Source: Marasmius tenuissimus
Lineage: Eukaryota > Basidiomycota > Agaricomycetes > Agaricales > Marasmiaceae
NCBI GenBank assembly: GCA_029532415.1
Contig: JAQOTA010000047.1
Location: 1,364,001-1,428,000 of the forward strand
Reading direction: 5' to 3'
DNA: 64,000 bases
Shown here: in pieces, positions 6,600 to 57,121 of the stretch
Layout: every line of letters starts with the position of its first letter
How positions within the stretch are numbered: the stretch's first letter is position 1
Position numbers and translations under genes: made by a program
Notes under the pieces: generated by a model
Databases searched by the model: none
The model's input: only the letters and a program-made list of their open reading frames with translations
What the model was told of the DNA's origin: nothing

Positions 6600-9500
6600 A
6601 TGCCAACATGCCCCACCTGCGGAAAGTTCTACAAGGCCGTCGGAAACCTCACGACGCATCAGAAGAAGGGTTGCGCCCAGGCCTCATCCGTTAATCAGTG
6701 AATAATGGTAAATCACCGAGAAATGAAGAGAAGAGAGGCATTGGGGGAGAATTTGGGTCACAATGAGGTACGTTTTTTGGTTGTTTGTTTTCATTTCCAA
6801 AGTATTAACAACTACTAGGACGTCGAATCAATGATTGCGCCTACAACGGAGGAAATTCAGCAGCCAGAACTCGAACCTGCGCCGGAAGTCCCTATACCCA
6901 AGGTATCTGTTGGGACTTCTCGTGCTGGCCGCCAACGTTTCCAGCCACGATACCTGCAAGATTATGTTCCACATCCTACAGTCAGGCTCCCAAGTGTCCT
7001 TCCTAGGGCTCCCACTCCTCCTCCACCGGAAACAGAGCCAGCAGGTCCACCTCCAGACCCGCCTACCCCAGAACCTAGCCCACCACCAGAGCCAACTCAC
7101 ATCACGACAGAGCCAGATGAATACGGCCTCTATCGTGTCTATTCCAAATACCCAGCCAAGGTTCCAGACGAGGAAGTAGGCGTAGAGGACGTCTGTGAGG
7201 GGGCTGGCTATCAGGAAAAGACAAAGGCCAACCCTCTCTCGATATTTGGTTTGTCAGATCCCGACTCTGAGGGGATTTTTGCGCCCTTTCTCAATGCAAC
7301 CGTTTTTCGACTCATGAGTTGGTTTTATGGGCCGAAGAACACAAAGAGCATTGCGGGTTTGGATTCGCTGGTCAACGAAGTCATCCTGGCGGATGACTTC
7401 AACCGAGACGACCTGGTGGGATTCAGGACACAACGTGAACTGGAGAGGCTGGATGATTATGCCAAACCACGTTCGAACCTTCGTCCCAAGGATGGGTGGG
7501 TCGAGGCAGAGGTTTGCATACGTCTGCCGGCGGAAGATGTCGAACAGAAGGAGGAGGATGCTCCCGAATTCCCTATCCCCAATGTTTTCTACAGGAAGCC
7601 GCTAGAAATCATCAAGTCAGCCTTTCAGTCTGATGCAGCAAAAAAGTTCCACTACGTTCCATTCCAGCAGTTCTGGCAACTGCCACCACCATCACCCAAC
7701 GATCCTCCGCCACCTTCACAGCGTATATACAGCGAGATCTACAATTCGGATGTGTTCATTGAAGAATACGAGAAGATTCAGACCCAGGAATACCATAATC
7801 CTCGGCCTCAATCCAACGATCTGAAAGATCCGCCGATTGAGAATGCCATTGCGGCTATGCTCTGGTGGTCAGATTCGACCCACCTCGCCAGTTTTGGAGA
7901 TGCTTCTCTGTGGCCACTGTACTTGTTCTTCGGAAACCAGTCCAAGTACGATCGAGCGAAGCCTACAACGTTCTCCATGCATCATACAGCCTACATACCT
8001 GATGTGAGTAGCTTTTTTATAACACTGCTATGATAACTGATAGTTCTCCAGCTCCCGGACAACATTCAAGAATGGTACCAGGACTTATTTGGAGTCCCTG
8101 CCAGTGGGGCTACGCTCACTCATCTGAAGCGGGAAATCATGCACGCGATCTGGGCCCTGATACTAGATAATGAGTTCATGCACGCCTATGAACATGGAAT
8201 TCTCATCCAGTGTGCGGATGGCATCGTGCGTCGTATCTTCCCCCGGTTTTTCACTTACTCTGCGGATTATCCCGAAAAGTAAGTTGCCATGTACTGTGTT
8301 CTTCCTCTCGCTCACAATGCTCCAGGGTCTTGCTAGCGACTATACGGAACCTCGGTCGATGTCCCTGCACTCAATGTTGTGTCGAGAAAGACCAGATCCA
8401 CGAACTCGGGATGTTACGTGACCAGCAACGTCGAGAACGCAAGGCTCGCGTTGATACGGAGGACAGGCGAAGCACCATCGAGCGAGTTCGGACTTGGATC
8501 TTTGCAAAAGGCAGAGCGGTTGCAAGCTCTGCAGTTGAGGCAGTGTTACAGGCTAAGTCATGGGTACCGACACGAGTATGTACATCTACTTAACAATGGC
8601 AAACTCCTTACGCTGATGATAATTGCAGAACACCTTCTCGGAGCGCTTTCACAAGTTCAGAATGAACTTTTACAGTATGCTCGTGCTGGATATATTGCAC
8701 GAGTTTGAGCTTGGTGTTTGGAAGGCTACATTCATTCACCTCCTTCGCATTCTGTGCAGCATCGGCGGCGATTCAATACAAAAACTCAACTCCAGGTAAG
8801 ATTTTGCTTATTGCGTTTGAGCATCCTGCTGACTATGCTTTCAAGGTATCGGATGGTCCCTACGTTTGGCCGGGACACCATACACAAATTCTCCGTTAAC
8901 GTGTCAGCCATGAAGCAGCTTGCGGCTAGAGATTTCGAGGACCTCCTTCAGGTTAGTACTTGATTTTTTCCCTTATTTTTTTTACTGACTCGTTTGACAC
9001 GCAGTGCTCCATTCCTGTATTCGACGGCCTTATTCCCGACCACAACAGCATCGTTCTTGACCTTCTTTACGACCTCTGTACTTGGCATACGTATGCCAAG
9101 CTACGGCTGCATTCAGACACCTCTATCGCAGACATGGATTTCGCAACAACCTCCCTCGGCAAGTCTTTGAGGAGGTTCAAGACCACCGTCTGTTCTGCCT
9201 ACATTACCAAAGAATTACCAAAGGAAACCGCAGCCCGAGGTCGTCGAAAAGCAGCCCTAGCAAAGAAGCAGGCAGAGACTGGGAACACCAAACGGAAACG
9301 AACAGGTGGAGCGTCGGGTGCCAAGAAGAAACAGTTCAATATCAACACCTACAAGCTTCACGCCCTTGGGCATTACATTCGCTTCCTTCGTTTGGTTGGC
9401 ACGACAGACAACTATTCAACTCAGATCGTATGTCGCTTTTTCTTGCTCATCACTAAATCACTGACCATTTGCAGGGTGAACTAGAACATCGGCGTGTCAA

Positions 9501-42048: not shown

Positions 42049-42075
42049 TTGGATGGTAGTGCGCCCGCGATTAGG

Positions 42076-42097
42076 CCCAGTGAAAATTAACATAAAT
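42076..42097 (+). repeat. Left terminal inverted repeat of the 14.6-kb element
   Basis: 22 bases starting CCCAGTGAAAATTAAC, identical to the reverse complement of 56624-56645. Confidence 0.88.
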
Positions 42098-42530
42098 AAT
42101 GGCGCATTCTGGGCAATTGTGGGCAATTGTCAGCAATTCTCAGGCTTCAAGCGAGGGGTCCCGCGGAAATATCTGGCAATTCTCTGACAATGGCCAGCAA
42201 TACGAAAATCGGGACCTTTTTTCGCTTTGTCAGGTATTCGCGGCCATTAACAGGTACACTTTGGGCACATGTCATGGTCCCCACAACAGCTATTTCCCGA
42301 TATTGTAGAAATAGGTATTCTCTGCTATTACAGACCAAGCGATAGTTGCGTGAATCAATCTACTATTGTCAGGTATTGTAAATCAGCCTATTCTCTGGTA
42401 TTATGGATCTGATACGGTTCAGTGTGCCTGGACAATAGGGATATTCTCAGCTCTTATTTTGGATCACACTCCGAGGTATTGCGAGGTATTGCGAGGAATT
42501 GCATCAATTACTTTCTATGGTACGGTACTA
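42098..42530. repeat. Left subterminal repeat region
   Basis: Dense short words of the types GGCAATTGT, CAGCAATTCT and GGTATT, repeated at 42112-42145, 42170-42200, 42235, 42300-42320, 42370-42400 and 42475-42500 (GAGGTATTGC in tandem). The right end has related words (GGCAATATC, GACAATGG) at 56550-56625. This is the usual look of subterminal transposase-binding sites. Confidence 0.6.
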
Positions 42531-43017
42531 GATTTGTCGTAATAGATGGGAATAGTCAGAAAGCACGTCCAAAGACGCCCCACGTGAGGCCAGGAAATTG
42601 GAATCGCATGGATATCCCGATCAAACAAGAAAATGAGCCTAGCTAGTGCGGGTCGAACTAGTGGCTCCTCATCAAAATCAATTCGTGATCTTTCCGAGAT
42701 TGTGAGCTATCTGAACACAAAGATGAAGCAGAGATTCGAGAACATACCTGAGCGTAGGAATCGTCAGAATCGTCAGAATCGTCTCATCATGGCACGTCGT
42801 GGAAAGCCTGTTCCATATTTATCAGAGAGTTATACTATGATGTCAAAAGGGACATCACATACCGCCCAAAGGTCCAGGTCAATCTTCGCGAGCCAAGCCC
42901 AGAACTGACCAACAGTGGCACCGGGAGGGGAATTTGCCAAGTGGTGGGCCTTAGCCGCAGTACTGAAAAAGTGAGAAATTAGTGAATGAACGTGTATGTA
43001 GAGTCAAGGTGTAGTTA
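42531..43017. other. No clear gene; possible short frame
   Basis: A plus-strand frame at 42633-42908 could encode 91 residues, including a tandem Asn-Arg-Gln repeat (NRQNRQNR), but lacks other support. The rest is 3' flank of the accessory gene. Confidence 0.3.
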
Positions 43018-45056
43018 CTAGGGCGACCCAGGCCTTGTTCCTTTCATTGTGAGAAGTTCATCGGGAAGTTTGGTAGACTTGATAGCTTTTGGAATAAGAG
43101 TCCGACCACCGGGAGATGTTTTGGTACCTTTGCGAGACTTTTTAGTGGCCTTGGCAGCTGAGGTGGATGTCGATGATCCAGCAGAGGTGGATGCTCCGGC
43201 GACAGTCGATGTTTGGGCCACTCTCTTGGGCGCTATCTTGATCTTCAAAGCAGTTCCAGAGGGCGTTGAAGTTGGTGGCTGGGCAGTCGATTCGGAGGAA
43301 GTCGGTATCGTCTGCGTCTGCGGGGGTGTGGGTAAAGCAAGCTGGCTGCCGGTGGCTACCTCGTCTTCAGAAGTATTGGCCATGGTAATGTCGTCACCAC
43401 CGCAATCTTCCTGAGTAGACGATTCAGTAGTCCTATCTACAGGCATTGCGTCGTCGTCAAAAGTAAAGGGGAGTGGGAGCTCCAAACTTTTGTCGAATCT
43501 AAAGAGTAAACATAGTGAGTAAGGAACACTTCCGAATGTTGATGAAATTCATACAAAACAACGTTGTGCTAGAGTTGATGTTGGATTCTATTAGACAGTT
43601 ACCAGTTGAGGAATAGAGTAGACATTACCTTTTCTATGGCAGCCTGAGCCAGATCTTCTGACCTTGCTCTCTTTGCAGGCGGAGAAGCCTCTGGATCCCT
43701 ACCAGGGGCGCTAGACGGTGATGGCTGGAATTCGGACCTGGGTTGTTTTGAGCCGCTTGAGCTGGATCCCTGCTTTTCAGCAGTAGCATCTGTTGTAACG
43801 ACGGGAGCAACTGGGGTGTTAGGAACATTGGGAACGTTGGTGGTAGTGTCAGAAATGTTGGTTGTGTTGGTAATGTCGGGAGCGTCGGGAACGTCTGGAA
43901 CCACCAGGACGTCGGGAATGTCGGGAATGTCGGGAACCACTGGAACGTCGGGAACCACTGGAACGTCGGGAACCTCTGGAACTGTGGGAACTGCAGTGGG
44001 AACCGGAACGTTGTCCACATTACCGGCATTAGAACTGGCGGCAGTATCCTTATCAACATCCATAGGCGCTACATCATTGACATCCTTCCCACCCGTGGGG
44101 CCGGCTTCAGTCTTCTCCGTGTCGTTGTCGTCATCTTCCTCATCGTCCACACCATCCTTATGAGTTTGCCACCACCCAGAGTAAGTCTTCTTGCCAACTC
44201 GGTCCGCTTTCCAGTTCCCATAACATAACTGTAATTCGGGAGCCAGAATGCGCATCAGTTTATAGAAAGTGATGCGAACGAGGGGGGAAATTTGGTCCCA
44301 ACCACCAGGACTGATGAGCCCCTTCTTTGCAAAGAATGTGTAGAATGCTCGCACGTCCTGGGTGATTGTAGTGACACGTTCTCCAGGTACAGAGTTGCCT
44401 TGTGGGTCCTCTATAAATTGGTACGCGACATTCTCGTTTTTCGCGCGGCATCCTCGTCCCTTTTTGCCCCGTTCCTCCTGCTCCTGCTCCTCCTCATCAT
44501 TCCCTTTCCCCTTCCCCTTCCCCTTTGCCTTCTTCTTGGACTTGGGCTCCTTGTATTTATATGAATGCCAGTACTTGACCTGGCTATACTGTTTTTCATC
44601 CAGCTCTGTGAAGCCCGTGAAGCCATTAAGGTTGACTAGCCCCTCTGACTTGCCGTCGGACTCTATCAGTCTCGGCACAGGCTGCTTGAGGAGGCCGTCA
44701 CGGACCATTTCCCTATACTTGTGGTTTAGAGCCAACTCAGCAAAGCAACTAGTTCGCATCAATACTTACTTCATTGACTTCAGTTCTGTCATGAGAAGTC
44801 CAAAGGCGCTATCAAGAACGTGACTCCCAGTATAGAAAAGCTCGGGAGAGGAGCTGGCGTTTTCAATATCAAACTGAGTTACGGTGGCGTCGAACTGAGA
44901 GTCATAACTTGGTTCCCTCTGACGTCCGTGATAAACGCTTTTGGCCTTGGTAGTCAACGAAGCAATAGAAGGGTTATTGGACCGCTGGAGACTGTCACCA
45001 GTGGCAGCGGCGTCGTCATTGGGAGAGGAGTTGGGAATTGCTGGCAGTGGTGACAT
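43018..45056 (-). CDS. Element-encoded acidic, low-complexity accessory protein
   Basis: Three exons: 45056 to about 44780, 44722 to about 43632, and 43485-43018, about 600 residues. The first intron (GTAAGT..TAG) joins LKSMK to EMVRDGLLKQP; the last precedes FDKSLELPLPF. Features in order are a Ser/Asn-rich start, a globular-looking part with WHSYKYKE and a Lys/Gly then Glu-rich tract, a segment FYTFFAKKGLI..VRITFYKLMRIL, an acidic DDEEDDDN run, a Val-Pro-Asp repeat block (about 43840-44000) and a basic Ser/Thr tail. Family unknown. Its place beside the transposase cargo suggests a DNA- or protein-binding helper in transposition, which is inference only. Confidence 0.6.
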
Positions 45057-45205
45057 GGCAGTCAGGGAAGAAGATTCAATTAGATTTACGTGTTTCTTGT
45101 ACTTATGCGCGTCTCGTAGCAGTCATGTGACTGTATAAATTCAATTAATAGGAACACGAAAACATAGAACTACACGACGAGCAGACAAGAAATATGAACA
45201 TAGCC

Positions 45206-48200
45206 CTATGTACGACTGGACTTCATGTGAATATTGCGAAGCCAACCATTGTTGTCCTCTATCCACTGTTTCGCAGCATTGTCAGTACTAAAGGCGAAAG
45301 AAACTCTCAGTCCCTTGAAATCAAGATTATAATGGCTATAGCGCTTGGAAGGGAAGATTGTAAAGTCTCCAGACTTGAGTTTGATAACAATTCCTGGTCC
45401 CTCCAATACAAGTTCACCTCCAGTGCAGTCGTGGATGGCCAACACCAAACAAAGATTCAGATCCTTTGGATCTAAGTGAACTATTGTCGCAGCGTTGAGG
45501 TTCACAGCAACACCGCCCCAAGGATGGACTGGAGAGGCGGCATTCAAGGGCAGGCCACTGATGAAGGCCACAAGTTCTCCATTCTCTTTGGGAAATCTGT
45601 CCTTCACCTACGTCACGAACATGTTAGTCCAAGTGTGAGTGAGTACCCTTGAAAACATACCACGCCAGCCAGGTAGGTCAAAAGTGGCTTCATAGCTGTC
45701 AATAGTCTTGTGCCTCGTGTTTCTTGCTCGTAGAATTCCGCTGAGAATCTCGGCGTGAATTGATTGATATCGGGTGGTCGTTTGCCTTCCTTCTCCAACA
45801 TCCAGGGGTCTGCATCATGTGGTACATCGTCACCCTGTGCACAACAAGCGTTAGTTGCGTATATATCCTTCTCATCATCTGAGGACCTACTCTGGTAGCG
45901 TATCGGTTGTAGATGTTGAGGTGGCTACATTTGAACTTCTGGTGCCCGTCTGTTGAGCTATCCGTGTGAGACAACTCGGGGAATAGATTTTGGATGAAGA
46001 CCAATAATCCCGCCATTAGTTCACTTGGTATTGTGCACCCGATCAGAACTATTGTTTCGCCGTGCTTGTCACATATGTCCAGGACCCTGAAACACCCATG
46101 AGTTTCACCCAAGCCTCAAAGAGCTGTACGTACCTGTCACCCAACTGGTCTCTGTCATAGTATAGGTAGGAATCAGAATCAATGCGATACCCTTCCTGCA
46201 CGCTATCCATGACCTAGCGATTTTTGAGTACAATGTTATCCCGCGTCGAGACTAGGACAAAGTGACCTACTTCCTGAATGAACTCCTCAATCGAGGTTGG
46301 TCGGATACAGGCTGCAGGCAGCAGTTCCCTTCTCCCGAGTGTCCAGGCTATTCGACTGTCCATGTCCCTTTTGCAAGGAAATTTATTGTGCTTGTTGGCA
46401 GGATCGAACTGGGTATTTACTCGGGTGACACCGACCGATGCGTCAGTAGACCGTTCTAAGTGAGGGGTTTGATTCACTGGTGCTGTATACAACCGTACGA
46501 CAGAGTGACCGTTTATGAGGACAGTGTTGCGGGGAGTCTCGGACTGAGAGAGCTGGAAAGTCTTCCAAGCATTCTCATCGCGTTCAGGTTGTCCCCATCC
46601 GCTATTCAAGACTCGCAATCAAAAGACGGGCCAAGGTACATGCGAGAGAAATACGCACTTGTGAGAAAGACATGAATGATAGGCTTGAGCTTGTTGAAGG
46701 TTTGTTAAGTCGATGACATCCGAGTTAGGCAGTCCAAGAATATGTCGACTTTCCAGAGGTAGTGCAGATGGAATAGCTATGGCCAGACGTCTCCGAAGTG
46801 AACTTATTGCCGGAATGAATACCATCTTCACAAGCTTCCCGAAATCCGAATCTGTTGAAGGGTCACTGAGACTACGCAGAAATATAGGCAAAAAAAGACC
46901 AACCTCCATCGTCTGGTCTTAAAAATGCTCTGCAAACAACGGGGGTGTCTCGCATCACCAAAGGGCCGAATCGACTTTGGAGTCTGGCCGCTGTGATTAA
47001 GAACAGAAGATAGACAGTGCCTGCTGACACTAGCTCGGCGAATGTTGTTCCTTGACTGACCCATTTGCAAAACGTTCCGTAGGAAACCCTCTTCGCCACA
47101 TTTGTGTTCTCCAAGTGCTTGTTGTAGATGTCCATTAACGACCCGGCTGTCGTCCTTTGAATGCTGAGTGTAAAATCAGTTACTCGCATTCTCCTGTAAT
47201 ACCAGGTCTACGCACCGTTCCACTTGTATCCGGAAATTAATGAGAGAGAGCATGTTCATGAAACCCAGCGCCTGCTCCTTTGCATCGCCCTTACAGACCA
47301 TCTCGGCCGCAGCAGCAAGACTGACGTCTTTTCCTGGAGTAGACACATAGACAGAGGATTCGGTTCCATCCCCGTCGAAGGCCGAAACCATATAGTCCAC
47401 CCAAGAATCTTGTACATCCGCTGTAACGCATTTGTCATACAGCTCAAACACGACGACGGAGGTGACAGAAGATTTCGGATTGAGGTTCATCTTCTTTCCC
47501 TTGTTGATCAACCAATTGTTTGCTAACGAAGGGCTCTCTCGGTCTAGTTGTTGGTCTCTATACTCTGAATCTTCTGGCTGTTCGTCCCACGTCTCGCCAC
47601 TTCCTAATACTCCTCCGGCCGAATCAGCGTTTACAGCTCTATTCACGACAATCACACTAGTTTCCCTGTCCAGTGGCGTCGAGTTTCGCCTGCACTGTTC
47701 AGTCCAGACACCTCCTCTCAAACGCAGCATGTTTAGATGTTGCTGAGACCCCGTAGTGTCTAGCGACGAAAAGGGAAATGGTGGTTGAGGCGGTCGGGGC
47801 GTTTCTGAACGAGAAGGGTTCACCTGAGTGAGCAACCACAGATCCACCACTGGATCATAATCCCATCTATGGGGAGTTCTGTTGACTGCTGCAACACCGT
47901 TAACTTCGCCTTCAGTCGCCGTATCAGACTCTGTATCGGACTCAAAGGGGTCATAACGTCGTATGCTCTTTGGTTCGGGAGTCGAAAGTAGACTTGACGA
48001 CGAGTTCGGAAGCGGGTTGGGAGCGTTAGAGGTTGTTGCTGAAGAACTCATTGCGAATAGCAGTAACGGCAGTGAGGTCGTCGATGACTGTAGGGGTGTT
48101 GGTGATGGCAGAGGCAAAGGCGGGTGAGATTGTGGAGTTGGTGGAGTTTCGGGTGGTGTTGAGAGTGGCGAGAGCGAGAAGAGTGACGAGAAGAGCGAAG

Positions 48201-48667
48201 ATATTGGCGGAGGTGTGGTAGGTGGAGGTATGGTAGGTGGAGGTATGGTAGGCGGCGGTGGGAGTGACATAGGCGGCGTTGGCTGTGTTGGGCTTAATGG
48301 TGGCGACGATGACTGTGGGGGTGATGACGGTGGCAGCGTTGACAGCAACGGTGAAGATGGAAGAGCCGGCGAAGACGAAGCATATGGTGGTGAAGATGAT
48401 TCATGCATGGGAGAACGTGGTCCTGTTGTGTTTAAGTCAATGACATATAACGCTGGTCGAAAGGTTGTCATACTCACGAGCTACCTTTTCCAAAAAAGAT
48501 ACTATCTCGTTCATGGATTCTGATGGGGCCCCCAGGGATTCTGTGTGGAGTCCCAAGCGCTGGAGAAACTCCCGTGCTACAGCGGGGGTGAATGGAATCA
48601 TTATGGATTCATCTTCCGAACAGTCATTGGTGGGGATGGTAATGTCTTCCATCAAAAAATCTTCCAT
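45206..48667 (-). CDS. TET/JBP-like 2OG-Fe(II) dioxygenase carried by a transposon
   Basis: Nine exons (48667-48478, 48422-47216, 47163-46904, 46851-46659, 46601-46271, 46213-46134, 46086-45891, 45834-45661 and 45607-45206) sum to 1,010 codons with no frame error. The N-terminal third is Pro/Ser-rich. The C-terminal exon holds the double-stranded beta-helix: metal ligands in TIVHLDPKD (His about residue 921, Asp about 923), a GGELVLEGPG turn, GDFTIFPS, distal His in YSHYN (about 969) and the 2-oxoglutarate Arg in GLRVSF (about 978). The upstream YNRYATR and LLTYLAGV segments also fit basidiomycete TET/JBP proteins. These oxidise 5-methylpyrimidines in DNA. All catalytic positions are present, so activity is possible. 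Other 2OG oxygenase families cannot be fully excluded by eye. Confidence 0.78.
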
Positions 48668-49015
48668 TGTTGTGGGATAACGTTGACGTCCCCGATCGCC
48701 CTTGATTGATGATTGTCGATGGATCCCGATGGATCCCGGAGAGTGGGATGGGAAAGGTTGTAAGAGGGGATGTGTGGCCCAGCAGTGAAGATGACGATGA
48801 ATGGCGATGAATGGCGATGGCTTGAATGAGTGAAATGAGGCTGGTGGACGGCGGGGGAGGAAGTCGGTAGCAATAAGAGAATATCCGGTGATGAGGATGA
48901 ACGGCGGTGAGGACAAATGAATGATGAACGTTGACAATATATGTTGTCGTCAACTGAAGAGTAGCGAAGACGATAACAAAGTACGTCTTCGTCGTCAATG
49001 CGTTGAGTGAGAGGG
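48668..49015. other. 5' flank of the dioxygenase gene
   Basis: Upstream region inside the element. It contains short tandem words (GATGGATCCCG twice near 48719-48740, GAATGGCGAT twice near 48794-48815) and no gene. Confidence 0.4.
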
Positions 49016-49019
49016 GATG

Positions 49020-49160
49020 TGAGCTGAGTGGTGGTGGTTTTGGTCAACCTGTGGGTTGACCTCATGTTGTTCGTGTTTTTTCAACACGTTGGCGCCAGCG
49101 CTAATAATCACGCATAGGTGAATTTAAGCGCCAGCGAGCACGCCTACCGGGCAATTCCGG
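49020..49160 (+). repeat. Diverged direct repeat, copy 1
   Basis: Shares GACCTCATGTTGT, GGCGC..GCGCTAA, TAGGTGA and GCGAGCACG, in the same order and spacing, with 50870-51010. The two copies bracket the region with host-gene fragments. Confidence 0.55.
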
Positions 49161-49679
49161 CAATAGCTCACAGGTCAGCAGGTCAGCAGCATCGACAACT
49201 GAGAATGATGCACGCAGGCAGCAAGCAACATCGACTGGGAACATTGAACCACGAGGATGGGCGTCAGCAATCCTGATAGACGGGAATGACAGGCGGAAGA
49301 CGACGATATGCGAGCGGCATATACAAGTCTCAACGCTGAACAAATGAGGGCCTCTGAGCTGGAATCCGTAACCATGGATGGACGTTGAGCCGGGCCCATG
49401 TTGATTTTGAACTTGCTAGGTCCCAGATTGACGAGGGAGAATCCGGAGGGTCGAATTTCCTCCCTTTACCCCCTCCCTCGGACTCCAAAGTCACCCAAGC
49501 CGTAGCCGTGGCCAGAGAGGGGAGTGAAACAAACAGAGAGACGACGTCGGTGGCATTGCCATGGGGTTGGCGAGATGGAGTATCCGCCTCGAGTTGGCAG
49601 CGAAACAAGTGATTAGGGTCCCATGTGATCCTTTACTTTCGAGGTCGTGAGCATTCCCGAATGTTCTCGACAAGGTTTG
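49161..49679. other. No supportable gene
   Basis: Cargo region of the element. Frames are short and unassigned. Confidence 0.35.
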
Positions 49680-49870
49680 GATGACTCACCCTCTGGTCAT
49701 TGAGGACACTCGTGAGGTCGTAGTTGTAGTATTCGGCACGGGAGCCCTTGAGAGCGTCGACGCTTGGTGAGGGAAAGTGTTCTTCTTGCTCAAGGACAAG
49801 GTCCACAACAAGTGTGTTCCTCCGACTCCAAATCCAACCAAAATCTCGGAAACTATCTCTTTTCACTTCT
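49680..49870 (-). pseudogene. Unassigned gene fragment
   Basis: A minus-strand block reads like natural protein (RRNTLVVDLVLEQ, then GSRAEYYNYDLTSVLND) and ends at a GTGAGT donor-like site. It is isolated and probably another captured host exon, but I cannot name the source gene. Confidence 0.35.
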
Positions 49871-50319
49871 TGCCACGACCATGGCCGACTTCTAATCCAC
49901 AGATCCCTTGAAATTGGTATATCGGGAGAGCTGCTGTCGTCTCCGAACCTCGACCTCTCTGACTTTTTCGGTGTACACTGGCAGTCGTACTGGAGCTTGG
50001 AATCTTGTGGCGAAAAGCATCAGATTTGAAGCTTGAAGGACGAAGGCACATTTGCATGTTGAGTTATGAGCTGTCGAAGGTTGGTTCTTCTCGGTATGGA
50101 CATGGTTTGAGAGAAAGGCAATGTACCGGGCTAGACCCCCGTCTCCGCAAATCGATCACATCCTCATTTCCTCAAACAAGTGCTGGATACTTGTGATGGC
50201 CCTCGAATCGCCAAGATAGATAGTCTTTACCGCTGATAGCAGTATCATCGACTATCCTATCGTGGTGCGGGGTAGCAGTCACAATTGAGGTTGGGTGTCG
50301 ATGACCACGAGGAAACGAA

Positions 50320-50790
50320 CCTGATCGATAGATATGGGTATGAGAGGGGATCAGTTAACGTTTCCTTCAACTTTGCGAGCTCATTCACGTATCTGAGAGT
50401 CAAGAAAAAAACAATCAAGACGTGTTGATGTTAAAAGTGACCGCTACGCACCTCTCCTTGCTTATAATCTCAAACAGCACTTCCTGTCGAGTTCGCTCCG
50501 GTGAACCCAGGTTGGACACAAGGTCTTCCTCTGTAGCTTCACTCCAGGATGTTGCTGAGATAATCCGGCTACCACTGGTCGTGTTGGACATTTGGGAGTA
50601 TGGCGTACCAGACCGTAACGACTGAGCTGATGCAGCGTCTTGTCGGTGTGAATAGGGTGAAGCTGTGCGTATTGAGGGTGCCTTCTGACCTGAGCCCGTA
50701 GAACCTAGGTTGGTTTTTGATGAAGATGCACCTGCAGAAGATGCAGATCCACGAGGCTCGTAATTGAACTCGTCGGTGGGTAAGTTGTTC
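50320..50790 (-). pseudogene. Captured fragment of a RhoGEF gene (start of the DH domain)
   Basis: On the minus strand a Ser-rich stretch (PRGSASSAGASSSKTN) leads into EEDLVSNLGSPERTRQEVLF, then EIISKER. A proper intron (GTGCGT..CAG, about 50393-50451) joins this to RYVNELAKLKETLTDPLSYP. That is the usual opening of a Dbl-homology domain (RQEVIxEI..TERxYVxxL). The remainder of the DH domain and the PH domain do not follow in any frame. Intron retention shows the piece came from genomic DNA, not from a transcript. It is flanked by the diverged direct repeats and lies in the transposon's cargo region. Confidence 0.6.
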
Positions 50791-50869
50791 TACGTGGATC
50801 CCGTCTACCAGCAATCCATGCTGAAATAAAAGTGGCCCAGTCGTCAAGGTGAGTAGAGAATGGTGGTCT

Positions 50870-51010
50870 GAGGTGGTGGGTTGAGTCAAACCCTGATATG
50901 ACCTCATGTTGTCGAATACACGTCGTCGCTGGCGCTAAAATTCATGTATGGGTGATTTTAGGCGCCGGCGAGCACGGCTTTTAGCAAAATCCGGTAAATC
51001 CACTCATATT
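50870..51010 (+). repeat. Diverged direct repeat, copy 2
   Basis: Partner of the repeat at 49020-49160, about 1.85 kb away in the same orientation. Confidence 0.55.
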
Positions 51011-51518
51011 GGCAACGATGAAAACCAACAACGTTGAGGTCCAACAGCAACTACCTGATGGATAGTAGCGGCGAACAAGTGGTGACAGCCAACGTCAACA
51101 ACTGGGTTTCGCTGCCCGCTATGGAGACAGGCTTTAAGCCTGTCAAAACTGGAGTTGTGGACATGCGGGGTGACCAGAGTGGACCGATTAGGGTCGTAGA
51201 CAAGGGCAGAGATGGATGGGCATGGTTGGTGGAGAAAGGGGATTCCATAGCGAGAAAAAGGATCACCCATGGGTAGGTTTGTGTCTGTGAGGTCCAGTAA
51301 TGTAGTTGATGCAGAACGGTTGGTGATATGTGGAAAGCATGTGTGTAGAAGGGATATGCGTTGTTTCGCATTTGGACTTTGCGTTGTCGGTATCTACCAG
51401 GCAAGCTCGGTGTGCAATCTCTCGACTCTCGGTGACTTGGCAAAGCTAAGTAGAATCTGTTCATGACAGCGAAGGTTTGATAAAACTCTCTATAACCTCT
51501 ATAGAATGGAATACGCAC

Positions 51519-51700
51519 CTCCCTTGGCCCAGTTGTAACCAGCATTGCTCTTCTGAAGAACAAAGTTGTCGGAACGAAAACGCTATCAAACGTTCCAAAT
51601 CGAATAGAGTCCGTGATACCAGGCTCCAGATCAACCAGAACGACGTGGGATTTGGGAACATATATGTCAGTACCGATTTCGTTGTACCGGACACGCTATA
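51519..51700 (-). pseudogene. Captured fragment of a beta-tubulin gene
   Basis: On the minus strand the sequence reads YNEIGTDIYVPK, then VVLVDLEPGITDSIRFG, then, in a shifted frame, DNFVLQKSNAGYNWAKG. These match the conserved beta-tubulin stretch from YNE..KYVPRA through VDLEPGTMDSV to [22 protein letters not shown]. At least one frameshift separates the blocks. A GTGCGT donor-like site follows the final Gly, as if an exon end were captured with its intron. No further tubulin sequence is recognised on either side. A host gene piece was evidently copied into the transposon. Confidence 0.7.
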
Positions 51701-51720
51701 TCCTCGTCAAAATTCAACTC

Positions 51721-52386
51721 TACGTGACAAACCGAGCGAAGGTGGACCCGAACAACGGTAGATACAAACCGCAGCGAATTTGGTAGGTTAAGTGATGTAG
51801 TTGATGCAGAGCCATGCGTGGTCGAAAGGCCCCCGTTCTTGGTTTCCAGCGTATTAGACGGGGATACATTCACAGAACCTCATGGTGAGGTATAGCTATG
51901 AAGCAGCTTTGTTCTGGAAGAAAATGAGGTAGGGATGAGTCTCAATTCTGCCGGTACGAAAATTGTTGTAAGTTCAAGGTTGAAGATAGATTCAAGTGAA
52001 CGTACTGGACATTGCCTCGCCTTCTGTCTCTTCTCTGATTTTTTATCCTGTTCTATTCCAATTCTGAGGCCTCAACTCCGCTGATGATGCTGAATGTTGA
52101 AGTGTTCGTTTTCTCTTGCATATCGGTCCCATAGACTGTGACTTTGTGTTGAGCGCGGAGATGCTCCCTTCAGGCAGGTGGAAGTTCAAGAGAAAATTAT
52201 AAAATGCCTGCCGGTATTCGTTAGAACATCCAGCAACACTTATCCGGCGACAATGACATCTTTGTCGCCGCGGCCAGAGCTTATAAGAGAACTGAAGGAA
52301 CTCTTGTTGAGAGAACTCACAAACTCGTGCTGAGCTGTCAATTGTTTATTCTCCAATATAAATATGTTCTAAGCCTATACTATCTC
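51721..52386. other. No supportable gene
   Basis: Region downstream of the transposase gene. A TATAAATATG-like stretch occurs near 52358. No coding pattern is recognised. Confidence 0.4.
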
Positions 52387-55300
52387 TCAGAGTGACTCGG
52401 GAGTCAAATCTCCTTCGCGATTGGATTGTACATCGTTCTCTGCCTCATTGTATCCTTGAAGCGCCGAAATAGCTAGTCCAGGCTTCTCTACCATAAACCA
52501 ACGATTATCTTCAGTGCCGTCCTGGATCTTGGTTCTGTAGCGGAGATCCGGTGCCATGATAACAACGGAGAGTATGTCTTTCACCTCGACAACGTGAACA
52601 TCGATATCCCGAAAGTGCTGCATTGTGCGGTATGTTTTGCTTGACATCTCGTAGAGCTCGGAATTATGCTCTCCAAATAGCGAAATGGCGGCAAGATGCC
52701 TTTTCTTGCCTTCGATTTCATCTTCAAAATAGAAGTGAACTTCTCCCACGTGCTCAGTGTTTTTGTGTCGCATCTTAACTCGAAACCAAACGGTGAATAT
52801 TCAATCAATTTAGGATCATGAATCCCACATACCTTCACATGACGAGACATACGCACATGCTCGATCCCTTTGGCTTCCTCTTTCCAACGGGCCCGAGTGT
52901 TCTGGCCATTGGGAAGACGGAGCTTTGCCCATCGATAGACCTTGTGTTTATCTGGCAGATCTGATTCAGACACGCCCTGTGATATCCAATACCTCTTCCA
53001 TGCCATGCGCTCCACTTCCGGCAGGGGACGCGCTGTGCGGTCTCGAGCACGTAGGAAGAGAAAACCATTGCCAATATCAAGAGCACCTCTGGGGAGTGTG
53101 TTATCCAGGGGATCGAAATCAGGTACTAGCGTGTTACATCCATGCATCTTACCCTGGTCTATCTCACCTAGTCACGTCACACTTGGCTAGTCACATCACT
53201 TCTGGACCTATTCCAGGTATTTCCGGGCTATTATTCTAGCTCATTCCAACACTATTCCATCCCCGGCACTCAACCTTCACTTCCGTGGTTCAGTCTCTCG
53301 CACCAAGTCCATCCCTGGAACCTCCGCCATTTCTGCCTCCGCTTCCGGGACTACTTCCATTCTTCATTCTGACTTATTCTGACTTACTTATCTCCAACTT
53401 CCGAGATATTCCCACACTCACTCATTCTATTCATATCTTCATTCCATCACGCACATATTCATTTCCAGTTCATTTCCCTTCCGGTACATTCCTCCCCGTA
53501 TTTGACTTCCATATGATACATCAACCTTTCCTGCACTTGACTCACTTATGATTCATTCATTTACTATAACCCTATATAAGCTCTATACTTCTATCCTGTA
53601 TCAGAAGACTCGAAATCAACCAGGTTTCAACCAGAATCAACCAGGTTTCAATCTGGGTCAATCCCCATCATGACTCTAATGTCTTTCCTTCTCTCTCGCA
53701 ACTTGTCCTCTTAGTCTAGTAGAAGGACAGCTCAGTTCATGGTGCTGTTGGCGAAACCTTCAGCTACTGTCTGCTCTAGATCTGTTGCTCCCACACTCCT
53801 TCATCATATCTCTTTCCTATCCATCTATCCGACAGCATATAAAATCCCATATCTTATCTTTATCCCTATCCGATCCGCACGATCCTAACATAGCGCCTTC
53901 AAAGTATTCACTTGACATCGCCGTACGCCCCTCTGCTCCAAGTTCGCATATGGACTACAGTGGTTTTTGATCTCTTCGCCTAGATTCCCAATTGTACGCT
54001 CAATAACCCACTGGGAAAAAATGATGAATGGGCCGATACGAATCGTCTCTGGAGGGATTTGAGAGATACCGTGGATGCAAGGTCGGACGAAATGGATCCG
54101 GGATTCCTTTCGTTGGACATAGATAACTTCAAAATCATCCGAAAAGGAAGTGAAAAGCCTTGAGGCTTCCTGAACTTCCTCTACAGTGATAGATTCCTGC
54201 ATCATGAGACGAAAGCCCCTGACCAGCTGACAGTAATGTTTCCAGATCCTGTCAGGGAGAATCCCATAGAAGAGACAAGGGCCAAGGCCAAAGAAATAGA
54301 TGAGGAATTCCCAGGCCTTATAGCCGCTGTTGATCTTCTCCGCAGGATTTCTCGGTGGACGATCAAAGGATCCAGGAATGTACGGGGTACACAAAGCGAC
54401 TTGCTTCCCATGCTCTTTCCATACATCTCCTGTCAATACTGCCCAGAACCAAGAATCCTTGCTATCATTCTTATCAACGTCGATTGTGCCGCGCCAAAGA
54501 GATATCATTAGATCTGGTATGTTGAGACATGGCAGGTGCATGATATCACCGGGAAAGCATGTTGGAACGGGAAGGGAATGTCGTCTATTCAGGCCACTGA
54601 AGATGGAGGGCTTTGAAATGCCTGTCGCAAGGCATTTCCCCTCATAGTCGGTCCTGTGTTTTGAACCATGCACGATCAACATGTTCGCGTTGAATCTCTG
54701 AACGCATTCTTCCGCCGTGAACCCCCCAAGAAGGTCTGACAATCGCACATCGCCATGATCACAGCCTGAAACAGTATAGTTCAATGGCTTCAGACGAGCG
54801 GGATAGTATATTGATGCGCCAGTCTTGTGTCTGCCTGTCAGTGGGCAGTAATAACGACAATGCACCTTTCCATGATGACCAACACATCCGCTCAGTGTTG
54901 CCATACATGGACCATCAGCGCAAGCGAGGGCAAAGAACAGTTGAATAGTGGTGGAATGAGTAATATACGCGTTCCAGATTTTCAGCCCCTCAGCCTGTAA
55001 AGCAGAGACGTGGTACAATGATGAGAAGATGAAGCTATCGAGGTGCTTTGGTTTGTTGGGGCCACCAATGAAGCCACCTGGAAGGACATGCTTCTTCTTG
55101 TAACGTAGGTCGGGTGAGTAGTCGTAAATGATCCAGATGTAGATCCAGCAGTCAGATGTTTTGTTCCTGTAGAGCTGAGCCCCGTCAATCGAGAGGGTAA
55201 GAACCATGTCTTCTTCCTTGATCCTACCCTGTAAAACTGCATCCAAATAATCCTGCCCATCAAAGAAGTCGCGCAAAGGTGACGACCGCTTCCCCGCTCC

Positions 55301-56406
55301 CTCTCGAAGCTCCTTGATAACCTTTTTTGTATACTCGCGACGATAGTGCAGGTTTTTGGCGTTATGATGATTTCGCCATAAAGCCTGGATCTGGGGTCCT
55401 ATCGGTATCCAGGTGAATTGCCTCCGGGGCTGACCATCATCAGTATATCGTGGCTGCCGACAATAATCACAGCTGGAGCGATCGCGGAATGGCCCAGTAT
55501 AACCCATACATGTGTTAACACACATGTCCCTCTGTATAGCAGTGACGCCGCTAAGCTCCGCGATGAGCTTTTTCACCTCGTAATAGGACAGCATATCACA
55601 CTCTGGAAAGCATTTGCGGATGCTAGCCCAAACCGCGTTGTAAGTCTTCTCTGAGGCATTTGAAACCGCAAGGAACACCTCTAGAGACAACCGCTCGTCA
55701 CGATCATCGACCACAACTGGTTCTTCCGGAGGATTTCGCAGCTGTTTGATGAAATCTGCTGGCAGAGGTTCCATCTCTGCTTCAGGACCATTGATTGTTG
55801 CATTCTGAAGCTCACAAATGAACTGTTCCGATATCTGAATCTCTCTGATGGTCGACTCGACCGTTGGTGGAGGTGTATAATCAGTTTCGACAGTCCCAGG
55901 CCGCCCTGACGGACTTTGCTGAGCTTCATTTTCTTCCAGACTATCTGGATTGGGTGGATCATAGTCTTGCTCTTCTGCAACTGGGCTGTCATCGGGGGAG
56001 TTATTGCTGGGATCAGGCACCGGGTTGTTCACGTGGATGTCGTTATCAGAAGTGTTCTACAAGGGAGATTGGTACAAACACAAGCTAGAAATAAGAGAGT
56101 ACTTACAGGTACAGTAGATTCTATACCACCAGTGGGGCCGTCCGCATTGTCTTCTGCATCGTCATCAGCAGGTGTGAACAGTAGTACCCCAATCATAGGG
56201 ATACTGCTCGTCGATGTAGGGTGTGAGTTTGGGTTTAGTCGAGCATGATGTGCAACGTCTGCAATCTTGTGTCGATATTTGGACGACTTGGAAACCCACA
56301 ACCCAACTCCATCAGGTCCACCACAGTTCTTGTAACAATTACAGATGAAGTAGTTCTTCCCTGGCTTGGGCTGGTCTCCGGGTACAGGCTGATCGCGAGG
56401 AGGCAT
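52387..56406 (-). CDS. Tnp2/CACTA-like transposase, interrupted by a solo LTR
   Basis: Exon 1 (56406-56107) begins MPPRDQPVPG and holds a Cys-rich motif, CNCYKNCGG. The intron is 56106-56057. The long second exon carries a zinc-ribbon-like block (CMGYTGPFRDRSSCDYCRQ, then PRYTDDGQP), IPIGPQIQALWR, a probable catalytic Asp in LTLSIDGAQLYR, a second in ALACADGPC, and a Cys/His block (CVGHHGKVHCRYYC). The C-terminal part (53126 to 52833, then 52773-52387) has RWAKLRLPNGQNTR and a conserved end, VVEVKDILSVVIMAP, then VEKPGLAI. A 759-bp solo LTR plus one 5-bp duplication (53132-53895) sits between Leu and Val of ALVPDFD. As it stands, translation stops 3 bases into the LTR. Without the LTR no other defect is visible. 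Confidence 0.82.
53132..53890. mobile_element. Solo LTR, 759 bp, inside the transposase gene
   Basis: Begins TGTTACATCC and ends CCTAACA, so it has the TG..CA ends and short TGTTA/TAACA inversion of LTR elements. It is flanked by the perfect 5-base duplication TAGCG (53127-53131 and 53891-53895). A TATA box (TATATAAG, 53573-53580) lies two-thirds along, as expected for the U3/R boundary read on the plus strand. No internal retrotransposon sequence is present, so recombination between two LTRs has removed it. Superfamily (Gypsy or Copia) cannot be told from the LTR alone. Confidence 0.88.
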
Positions 56407-56623
56407 AGCTTTCCGCGGCAGGAGGGAATATCTAGCAATATGTCCACAGGACGCTCGAGCTGACGGCAAACACATGCCCAATGGGTTGAGTATCAAGTAG
56501 TACAAATAAATGATGTCATTCCTGGTGGATAATTGTGCCAGAATATGCGAGAATAGCTAGGAATGCTCAAAAATGGCGTCACGTCACATTCTAATACCCG
56601 GCAATATCAGACAATGGCCCTGA

Positions 56624-56645
56624 ATTTATGTTAATTTTCACTGGG
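56624..56645 (-). repeat. Right terminal inverted repeat of the 14.6-kb element
   Basis: Inverted copy of 42076-42097; it ends TTTTCACTGGG and is followed by the GATTAGG duplication. Confidence 0.88.
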
Positions 56646-57121
56646 GATTAGGTCCCACGAGTTCTTAGCAAAGCTAATTAGCAGGAGACCCGCGAAACCT
56701 TTTTAGCTTAGCATATTAGCAGGTTTTTAGCGAAATTTTTAGAGCCATTTTTAGGCCATTTCTGGAGTAAATTCACGGTTTTTCGGTACCCTAGAGACCT
56801 TAAGTCTCTAGTATAAATGAATTCCTTCAGATTAGCATCCTCCTCGACAAGCGTCCGACCATCTTGAATGTTTGGTCGCCCTTCTGAAAATTTAGGCGCT
56901 TGGCAGGGACTGTCATTCCGACTCATTCGTTCTCCCAGATGCGACTACGTCATGAGCGAGTGTCCTGGCCGAAGGCTTTGAGCAGAAAGTACCATCATAG
57001 AACGGTACCTACATGGACTCTACACCCGCGAAAGTACTGTAAAACCTATTTAGCAGTGACTGGCTAATTAGCGTTGCATTTCTGGGGGGTCTGAAGGGCA
57101 CCGCTAATTAGCTGCTAATTA

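Follow-up and report, generated by a model that had tools for sequence, protein, structure and literature searches.

A likely anti-silencing transposon of the Tnp2 type, carrying a TET/JBP-like dioxygenase gene, in Marasmius tenuissimus

Here, we describe a DNA transposon of 14,570 bp with exact ends at positions 42076-56645 of a 64,000-nucleotide stretch of the Marasmius tenuissimus genome (assembly GCA_029532415.1, contig JAQOTA010000047.1, positions 1,364,001 to 1,428,000 of the forward strand), hereafter the window. The element holds a Tnp2-type transposase gene, a gene for a divergent enzyme that is predicted to be a TET/JBP-like dioxygenase, and a third gene, and we regard this well-bounded element as a likely anti-silencing transposon. 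The explanation that we favour, and hold to be rather probable, is that the dioxygenase oxidises 5-methylcytosine (5mC) on the DNA of its own transposon family and so blunts silencing by CpG methylation. Its features in the window, with the basis of each in brackets, are listed below; on the minus strand the gene order is transposase, TET-like gene, third gene.

42057..42075, no strand: left edge of an older target repeat that resumes at 56646 (repeat copies)
42069..42075, no strand: left target-site duplication (TSD), GATTAGG (flank reading and empty sites)
42076..56645, minus strand: whole transposon (terminal inverted repeats, TSD, colinear 98% identical copy on contig C5)
42076..42097, plus strand: terminal inverted repeat (TIR) of 22 bp, third-gene end (end comparison, C5 copy)
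42116..42500, plus strand: subterminal repeats [AT]ATT[GC]TC[AT]G (seven in the last 560 bp)
~43018-45055, minus strand: third gene, ORF3, several exons, approximate extent (same order in the other six TET-bearing elements)
45206..48667, minus strand: dioxygenase gene, 9 exons, 1,010 amino acids (gene model, Marasmius proteins, Pfam)
48478-48667, 47216-48422, 46904-47163, 46659-46851, 46271-46601, minus strand: dioxygenase exons 1-5
46134-46213, 45891-46086, 45661-45834, 45206-45607, minus strand: dioxygenase exons 6-9
45305..45478, minus strand: predicted catalytic residues H921, D923 and H969 (iron) and R978 (2-oxoglutarate) (alignments)
52387..53131, minus strand: remainder of the transposase gene past an insertion (reading frames, C5 copy)
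53132..53890, no strand: insertion of 759 bp resembling a solo long terminal repeat, with the duplication CGCTA at 53127-53131 and 53891-53895 (comparison with the C5 copy)
53896..56056, minus strand: transposase exon 2 with the catalytic core (Transposase_21), open frame 53885-56056 (Pfam, homologues)
56107..56406, minus strand: transposase exon 1 (gene model)
56624..56645, minus strand: TIR of 22 bp, transposase end (end comparison, C5 copy)
56646..56652, no strand: right TSD, GATTAGG (flank reading and empty sites)

Ends of the element and its copies in the genome

The two ends are a perfect 22-bp inverted repeat, CCCAGTGAAAATTAACATAAAT, whose outermost bases are CCCAGTG..CACTGGG, and GATTAGG abuts both of them (42069-42075 and 56646-56652) as a 7-bp target duplication. 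Three paralogous copies of the target repeat (on C33, on C10 and elsewhere on C23, the contig that holds the window) have a single GATTAGG across the junction, and thus provide an empty-site test of the duplication; in a further copy, on C30, the match starts at GATTAGG. The insertion point lies 19 bp inside the edge of this older repeat, which has inverted ends of its own and occupies window 42057-42075 and 56646 to ~57396, with copies on C33, C10, C23 and, in part, C30. Beyond that edge, the left flank found no other match in the genome search.

The genome that was searched comprises 71 Mb in 70 contigs (labelled C1, C5, C7 and so on), and in it, when up to 3 mismatches are allowed, the terminal 21-mer has 34 matches and the reversed control 1. 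A perfect 7-bp duplication flanks 14 of the 17 left-right end pairs that could be formed from retrieved sequence (chance ~6e-5 per pair); in the remaining three (C1, C30 and C7:5716), 4, 2 and 1 bases agree. The target consensus is nnTnAnn, with T at position 3 in 14/14 and A at position 5 in 13/14. Thus, the CCCAGTG ends and 7-bp TSD noted in a sequence-only reading of the window hold up, and the search for elements with the same ends proposed there yielded six more TET-bearing elements and seven without TET.

The seven TET-bearing elements among the 14 span 13.0-22.9 kb (the window copy, C5:2493, C5:221, C7:1867, C7:1589, C10:3586 and C28:1862), and all of them share the transposase, the dioxygenase and the third gene in the same order. 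We reject the reading that the three genes are chance neighbours, since the same arrangement recurs within TSD-bounded limits seven times. The TET-less elements are one of 7.4 kb with transposase and third gene (C12:526112-533548) and six derivatives of 1.4-1.7 kb; no TET match was found at any of these seven loci. Of ten TET matches from one search of the genome, seven belong to TSD-bounded elements that also hold this transposase and third gene. The window copy and C5:2493 are colinear at 98% identity, and C7:1867 and C5:221 show 0 differences across stretches of 3,399, 4,116 and 3,000 columns, of which the first and second overlap. As the latter two copies are this alike and yet are flanked by unlike duplications, they indicate recent movement.

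Subterminal repeats are a hallmark of CACTA/EnSpm elements. The strict motif given above, picked after the repeats had been seen, occurs seven times in the last 560 bp at the third-gene end, and 0 times both in the inner 13,750 bp and at the other end, where a relaxed form adds 3 occurrences.

Several other sequences were observed alongside the family. Between the dioxygenase and transposase genes lie two short, partly palindromic copies, ~72% alike (window 49030-49145 and 50872-50979), and related pieces are also present in the C5 copy. The C5:221 element holds extra sequence that includes a Plavaka match, and the window has a Plavaka-profile match of its own outside the element, at 7578-8297 (C23:1371578-1372297); its two pieces score 33.7 and 30.7 bits, and one of them contains a stop. 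The eighth of the ten TET matches, on C69, adjoins a remote Tnp2 gene: at C69:645095-653104 this gene (26% identity) is separated by ~6 kb from a catalytic exon of TET-like type that is 62% identical to that of the window. The C69 locus may represent another Tnp2 lineage that carries TET; a search for the ends of such an element found none.

The transposase and dioxygenase genes

Against Pfam-A, the transposase matches a single family, Transposase_21/Tnp2 (PF02992), at 28.6 bits, which equals the cut-off of 28.6. Among 16 rows (the window and 15 picked from 120 listed homologues), 15 match PF02992 and 0 match KDZ (PF18758) or Plavaka (PF18759) at E up to 0.01. The homologues number 901 among 7,996 scored proteins, and several are named Tnp2. 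S-x-D, ADGP, CRxxC, DxMH and the E of an ER motif are invariant, which we take to fit a Tnp2-type DDE enzyme. Genome-wide, the KDZ profile has 165 matches and the Plavaka profile 126; no family transposase overlaps any of the KDZ matches listed or any of the 126 Plavaka matches, and a PF02992 search of the genome does find the family transposases. The KDZ match that was to overturn the sequence-only assignment, a Tnp2 transposase without KDZ signatures on a carrier distinct from KDZ elements, did not occur, and the 22-bp TIRs likewise set the carrier apart.

The same reading took 52387-56406 to be the transposase gene; it is one, but not an intact one, being split by the 759-bp insertion (TGTTAG...GTAACA, 5-bp duplication CGCTA), which the 98% identical C5 copy does not have. 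This stretch is not an intron, given that the C5 copy is without exactly those bases and that the stretch has a 5-bp duplication of its own. Because its transposase gene is interrupted, the window copy is likely a damaged member, which other members of the family could serve in trans. Transposase dN/dS (the ratio of nonsynonymous to synonymous substitution rates, dN and dS) is 0.06-0.13 for diverged pairs; it is 0.5 for the window and C5:2493 and 0.29 for C7:1868 and C5:231, with few changes in both of these pairs.

In a quick tree of 57 transposases (17 from this genome plus 40 taken from the 120 homologues listed, leaving out the N-terminal part on C28 and the fragments at C30:268), ten copies of this genome and two Marasmius proteins form one clade (Shimodaira-Hasegawa-like approximate likelihood ratio, SH-aLRT, 100). 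Two copies for which no TET match was found outside small unread gaps, C10:5249 and C7:882, fall within it, and the TET-less C12 element falls outside. The simplest reading of the tree is that TET was gained after the lineage with 7-bp TSDs and CCC ends existed and was later lost from single copies.

The dioxygenase model has GT-AG introns and no stop, and all 8 exon junctions match the independently annotated Marasmius proteins P0121 and P0122. The intact iron and 2-oxoglutarate ligands that had been claimed for the enzyme are borne out as predictions, with H921, D923, H969 and R978 invariant in 7/7 relatives; in a second alignment, which includes a KDZ-linked homologue of the same genome (32% identity), the H, D and H are invariant in 7/7 rows. 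The HxD motif reads VHLDP and the HxE of PE-type enzymes is not present, so a PE-type enzyme is excluded. The relatives in the protein database are seven, all from Marasmius, and five of them came up again in a second search, in which scoring was confined to the 7,994 candidates with the most words in common.

How firmly can this enzyme be placed within TET/JBP? The Tet_JBP family (PF12851) is matched by 7/7 relatives at E up to 0.01; of four scored singly, P0126 lies above the curated cut-off and P0121, P0125 and P0127 below it. Tet_JBP is both the best and the most frequent Pfam match of the catalytic-exon rows, and an hhalign comparison with a TET-like exon that is linked to a KDZ gene in this genome gave a probability of 96 (E 4.4e-9). 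Several results weigh against the assignment: the C-terminal 636 residues of the window protein reach 18.3 bits where Pfam sets the cut-off at 34.9, the catalytic exon of some rows also matches general 2OG-Fe(II) oxygenase families, and two structure predictions had mean confidence scores (predicted local distance difference test, pLDDT) of 31.4 and 33.6, too low to judge the double-stranded beta-helix fold of TET/JBP enzymes. The profile check proposed by the sequence-only reading thus succeeded for the relatives and fell short for the window protein itself. Because that protein lies below the Pfam cut-off and no structure model is usable, the placement within TET/JBP is supported but not settled.

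In the catalytic exon, the window and C5:240 differ by a dN of 0.018 at a dS of 0.608 (dS being saturated and undefined for several other pairs), and seven catalytic exons at >=88% identity contain no stop. This excludes a pseudogene and indicates that the exon is under strong purifying selection.

The genome holds a second population of TET-like genes. With a KDZ-linked TET-like exon from C12 as the query, 58 matches were found, and for at least 7 of the 11 with E up to 1e-30 a KDZ match is listed less than 10 kb away. Among the window-type TETs (>=88% identity), 0/7 are near a listed KDZ match and 7/7 accompany the Tnp2 gene; hence one genome keeps two TET populations on two transposon classes. 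A KDZ-linked homologue is 31-32% identical to the window enzyme. The C12 exon, which has no Pfam match of its own, may be an AG-type TET (the type that Kojima 2025 relates to Kyakuja and Zisupton), judging from its KDZ neighbour, its match to the window family and its resemblance to that type. A KDZ transposase and a TET-like gene ~3 kb apart in opposite orientation recur in several places, for example at C12:43640-47374, C17:35487-39398 and C27:2158830-2162566.

CpG decay and what the dioxygenase might do

The window copy and C5:2493 differ by 194 substitutions in 13,780 aligned bases, of which 178 are transitions and 136 exchange CpG with TpG or CpA. Changes thus fall on 136 of 768 CpGs against 58 of 12,239 other sites, which puts the per-site ratio at 18.7. 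On the assumption that CpG came first, the window copy accounts for 98 of the 136 decayed sites and the C5 copy for 38 (p 2.7e-7). The observed/expected CpG ratio is 0.81 in the element and 0.96-0.99 in its flanks. Read as the trace of 5mC deamination, this decay implies that the element has been methylated. Since hypermutation was not detected in Agaricomycotina, according to passages of Kojima (2025; PMC12730594), ordinary deamination is the modest reading. The host genome has five DNA_methylase matches over the cut-off, and repeats of Marasmius oreades are given as ~75% CpG-methylated in an excerpt of PMC9674265.

In light of this methylation, what might the role of the dioxygenase be? The sequence-only reading suggested that such an element might alter the methylation of its own DNA. 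In the explanation that we favour, the transposase would be a cut-and-paste enzyme acting on the CCC ends, and the dioxygenase would oxidise 5mC on DNA of its own family; this oxidation would help expression or transposition rather than shield the DNA permanently, and host silencing by CpG methylation would thereby be blunted. Some observations count against this. The ratio of CpG to other changes is 18-21 in the TET-bearing pair and 13.5 and 14.1 in a second such pair (few changes), as against 10.4-24.4 in a trio of short TET-less derivatives and 12.5-21.4 in four further pairs of left-end pieces, some near saturation. As decay is similar with and without TET, no lasting protection in cis is visible, though TET encoded elsewhere could act on all copies. 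In addition, the close copies C10:5249 and C7:882 have no TET match in the retrieved pieces (gaps of ~920 and 440 bp unread), and together with the complete but TET-less C12 element they argue that TET was not essential for past transposition.

One alternative, possible if on the unlikely side, is that the dioxygenase acts genome-wide without targeting, so that all transposons and host genes would profit from it and the element only spreads it. The similar decay in the TET-bearing pair and the TET-less derivatives fits this, as do the 58 TET-like matches elsewhere in the genome and the suggestion by Kojima (2025) that AG-type TETs in Agaricomycetes act without target specificity. Against it, purifying selection maintains the family's own TET (examined, among the TET families, for that of the window) despite many other TET-like genes, which is easier to understand if the gene serves its own family. 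We consider it unlikely that the enzyme instead modifies another base or makes another product (6-methyladenine (6mA), thymine or a stable hypermodified cytosine), marking the element rather than demethylating it. No solved enzyme is close in sequence, an exon profile having its best PDB matches in PKHD-type hydroxylases (E 0.0053), with CMD1 at E 1.1 and nothing better in further PDB searches, and Kojima (2025) notes that related TETs can act on 6mA and that CMD1 makes another product; on the other side stand the Tet_JBP matches and a CpG decay that indicates 5mC as the mark on the element.

A more specific version of own-family action, which we put forward tentatively and think doubtful, assigns the targeting to ORF3. 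For two ORF3 exons, Pfam gave no match up to an E of 1, and it is possible that the gene encodes a TnpA-like accessory protein. Such a protein would bind the subterminal repeats, recruit the element's own captured TET to that end and keep the end unmethylated. At the third-gene end (window 42076-43646, 1.57 kb), 4 of 72 CpGs have changed, compared with 132 of 696 in the remainder of the element (p = 0.003, post hoc), and in the first kb at the transposase end 10 of 45 did, so the low decay is not shared. That the least-decayed part is the repeat-bearing end fits recruitment of this kind.

That TET is a functionless passenger, retained only through recent capture, is very unlikely: there are TET-less copies, and two of these seem to nest within the TET-bearing clade, but a dN/dS of ~0.03 at a dS of 0.6 and catalytic exons free of stops tell against it. 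Finally, although published Kyakuja families have 7-bp TSDs (passages of Kojima 2025), a transposase that is really KDZ or Plavaka, with a misleading resemblance to Tnp2, is extremely improbable given the profile matches above, the lack of overlap with KDZ or Plavaka matches and the 22-bp TIR, Kyakuja being reported without TIRs.

Relation to known elements and significance

Transposons that carry TET/JBP genes are said to have been first reported by Iyer in 2014. The sequence-only reading took the element, if confirmed, for a separate capture by another transposon class. That such a capture is new in principle is not supported, for Kojima (2025) already describes TET-bearing elements in 11 lineages, including EnSpm, ESTA, Plavaka, hAT, Harbinger, IS3EU and Helitron. 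The principle is thus published, and what seems new is the lineage with its combination of traits: a Tnp2 transposase together with 7-bp duplications, an enzyme of the HxD rather than the HxE type, and marked CpG decay. In the open-licence PMC literature we did not find this lineage described, and Marasmius is not named in the main text of Kojima (2025), whose Table S1 may hold relatives.

According to the same passages, the TET-bearing EnSpm and Plavaka elements are similarly CACTA-related (CMCT) DNA transposons with a TET/JBP dioxygenase, and the TSDs given are 3 bp for rust EnSpm, 2-3 bp for Plavaka B, 2-5 bp for the CMCT clade and 7 bp for Kyakuja. Rust EnSpm has CAC..GTG ends and Plavaka B CATCA..TGATG ends, whereas the present element combines CCCAGTG ends with 7 bp; likewise, EnSpm and Plavaka of Agaricomycetes carry the PE-type (HxE) enzyme and the present one is HxD. 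Canonical CACTA/EnSpm elements share Tnp2/Transposase_21 with it, but not the CACTA or CAC..GTG ends or the 2-5-bp TSD. TET-bearing Kyakuja of Agaricomycetes share the 7-bp TSD and a TET/JBP-like HxD dioxygenase, but differ in having a KDZ transposase and CA..TG ends without TIRs in place of Tnp2 and 22-bp TIRs. Nearest in its ends is TRC (SmTRC1 and insect and fungal relatives), a CACTA-related group with Transposase_21, inverted ends starting with CCC (Aedes: CCCAGTCAAC) and 2-bp rather than 7-bp duplications (DeMarco 2006; PMC1636069); the TRC passages of that paper mention no TET gene. The earlier statement that the ends fit neither canonical CACTA nor hAT therefore stands as to CACTA or CAC ends, but CCC ends were already published for this CACTA-related group. 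Because it departs from the published ends or TSD of each named lineage compared, we file the element as a new Tnp2 lineage near TRC, set apart by published descriptions from canonical EnSpm, Plavaka and Kyakuja.

The nearest functional parallel is maize En/Spm, likewise a CACTA-type transposon with a protein of its own linked to loss of DNA methylation: TnpA, whose activation of the element goes with that loss and which is not described as a DNA-oxidising enzyme in the relevant part of the source (PMC10398659), whereas the present element encodes a dioxygenase. Recruitment of TET by ORF3, if true, would give Spm TnpA a counterpart that works through an enzyme.

The element adds a carrier with Tnp2, CCC ends and 7-bp TSDs to those already on record for TET/JBP genes, and extends the span of TSD lengths among CACTA-related elements. 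On the question whether a TET borne by a transposon protects the DNA of its carrier, the family amounts to a natural experiment, with closely related TET-bearing and TET-less copies and short derivatives side by side in one genome, and CpG decay as a record of past methylation.

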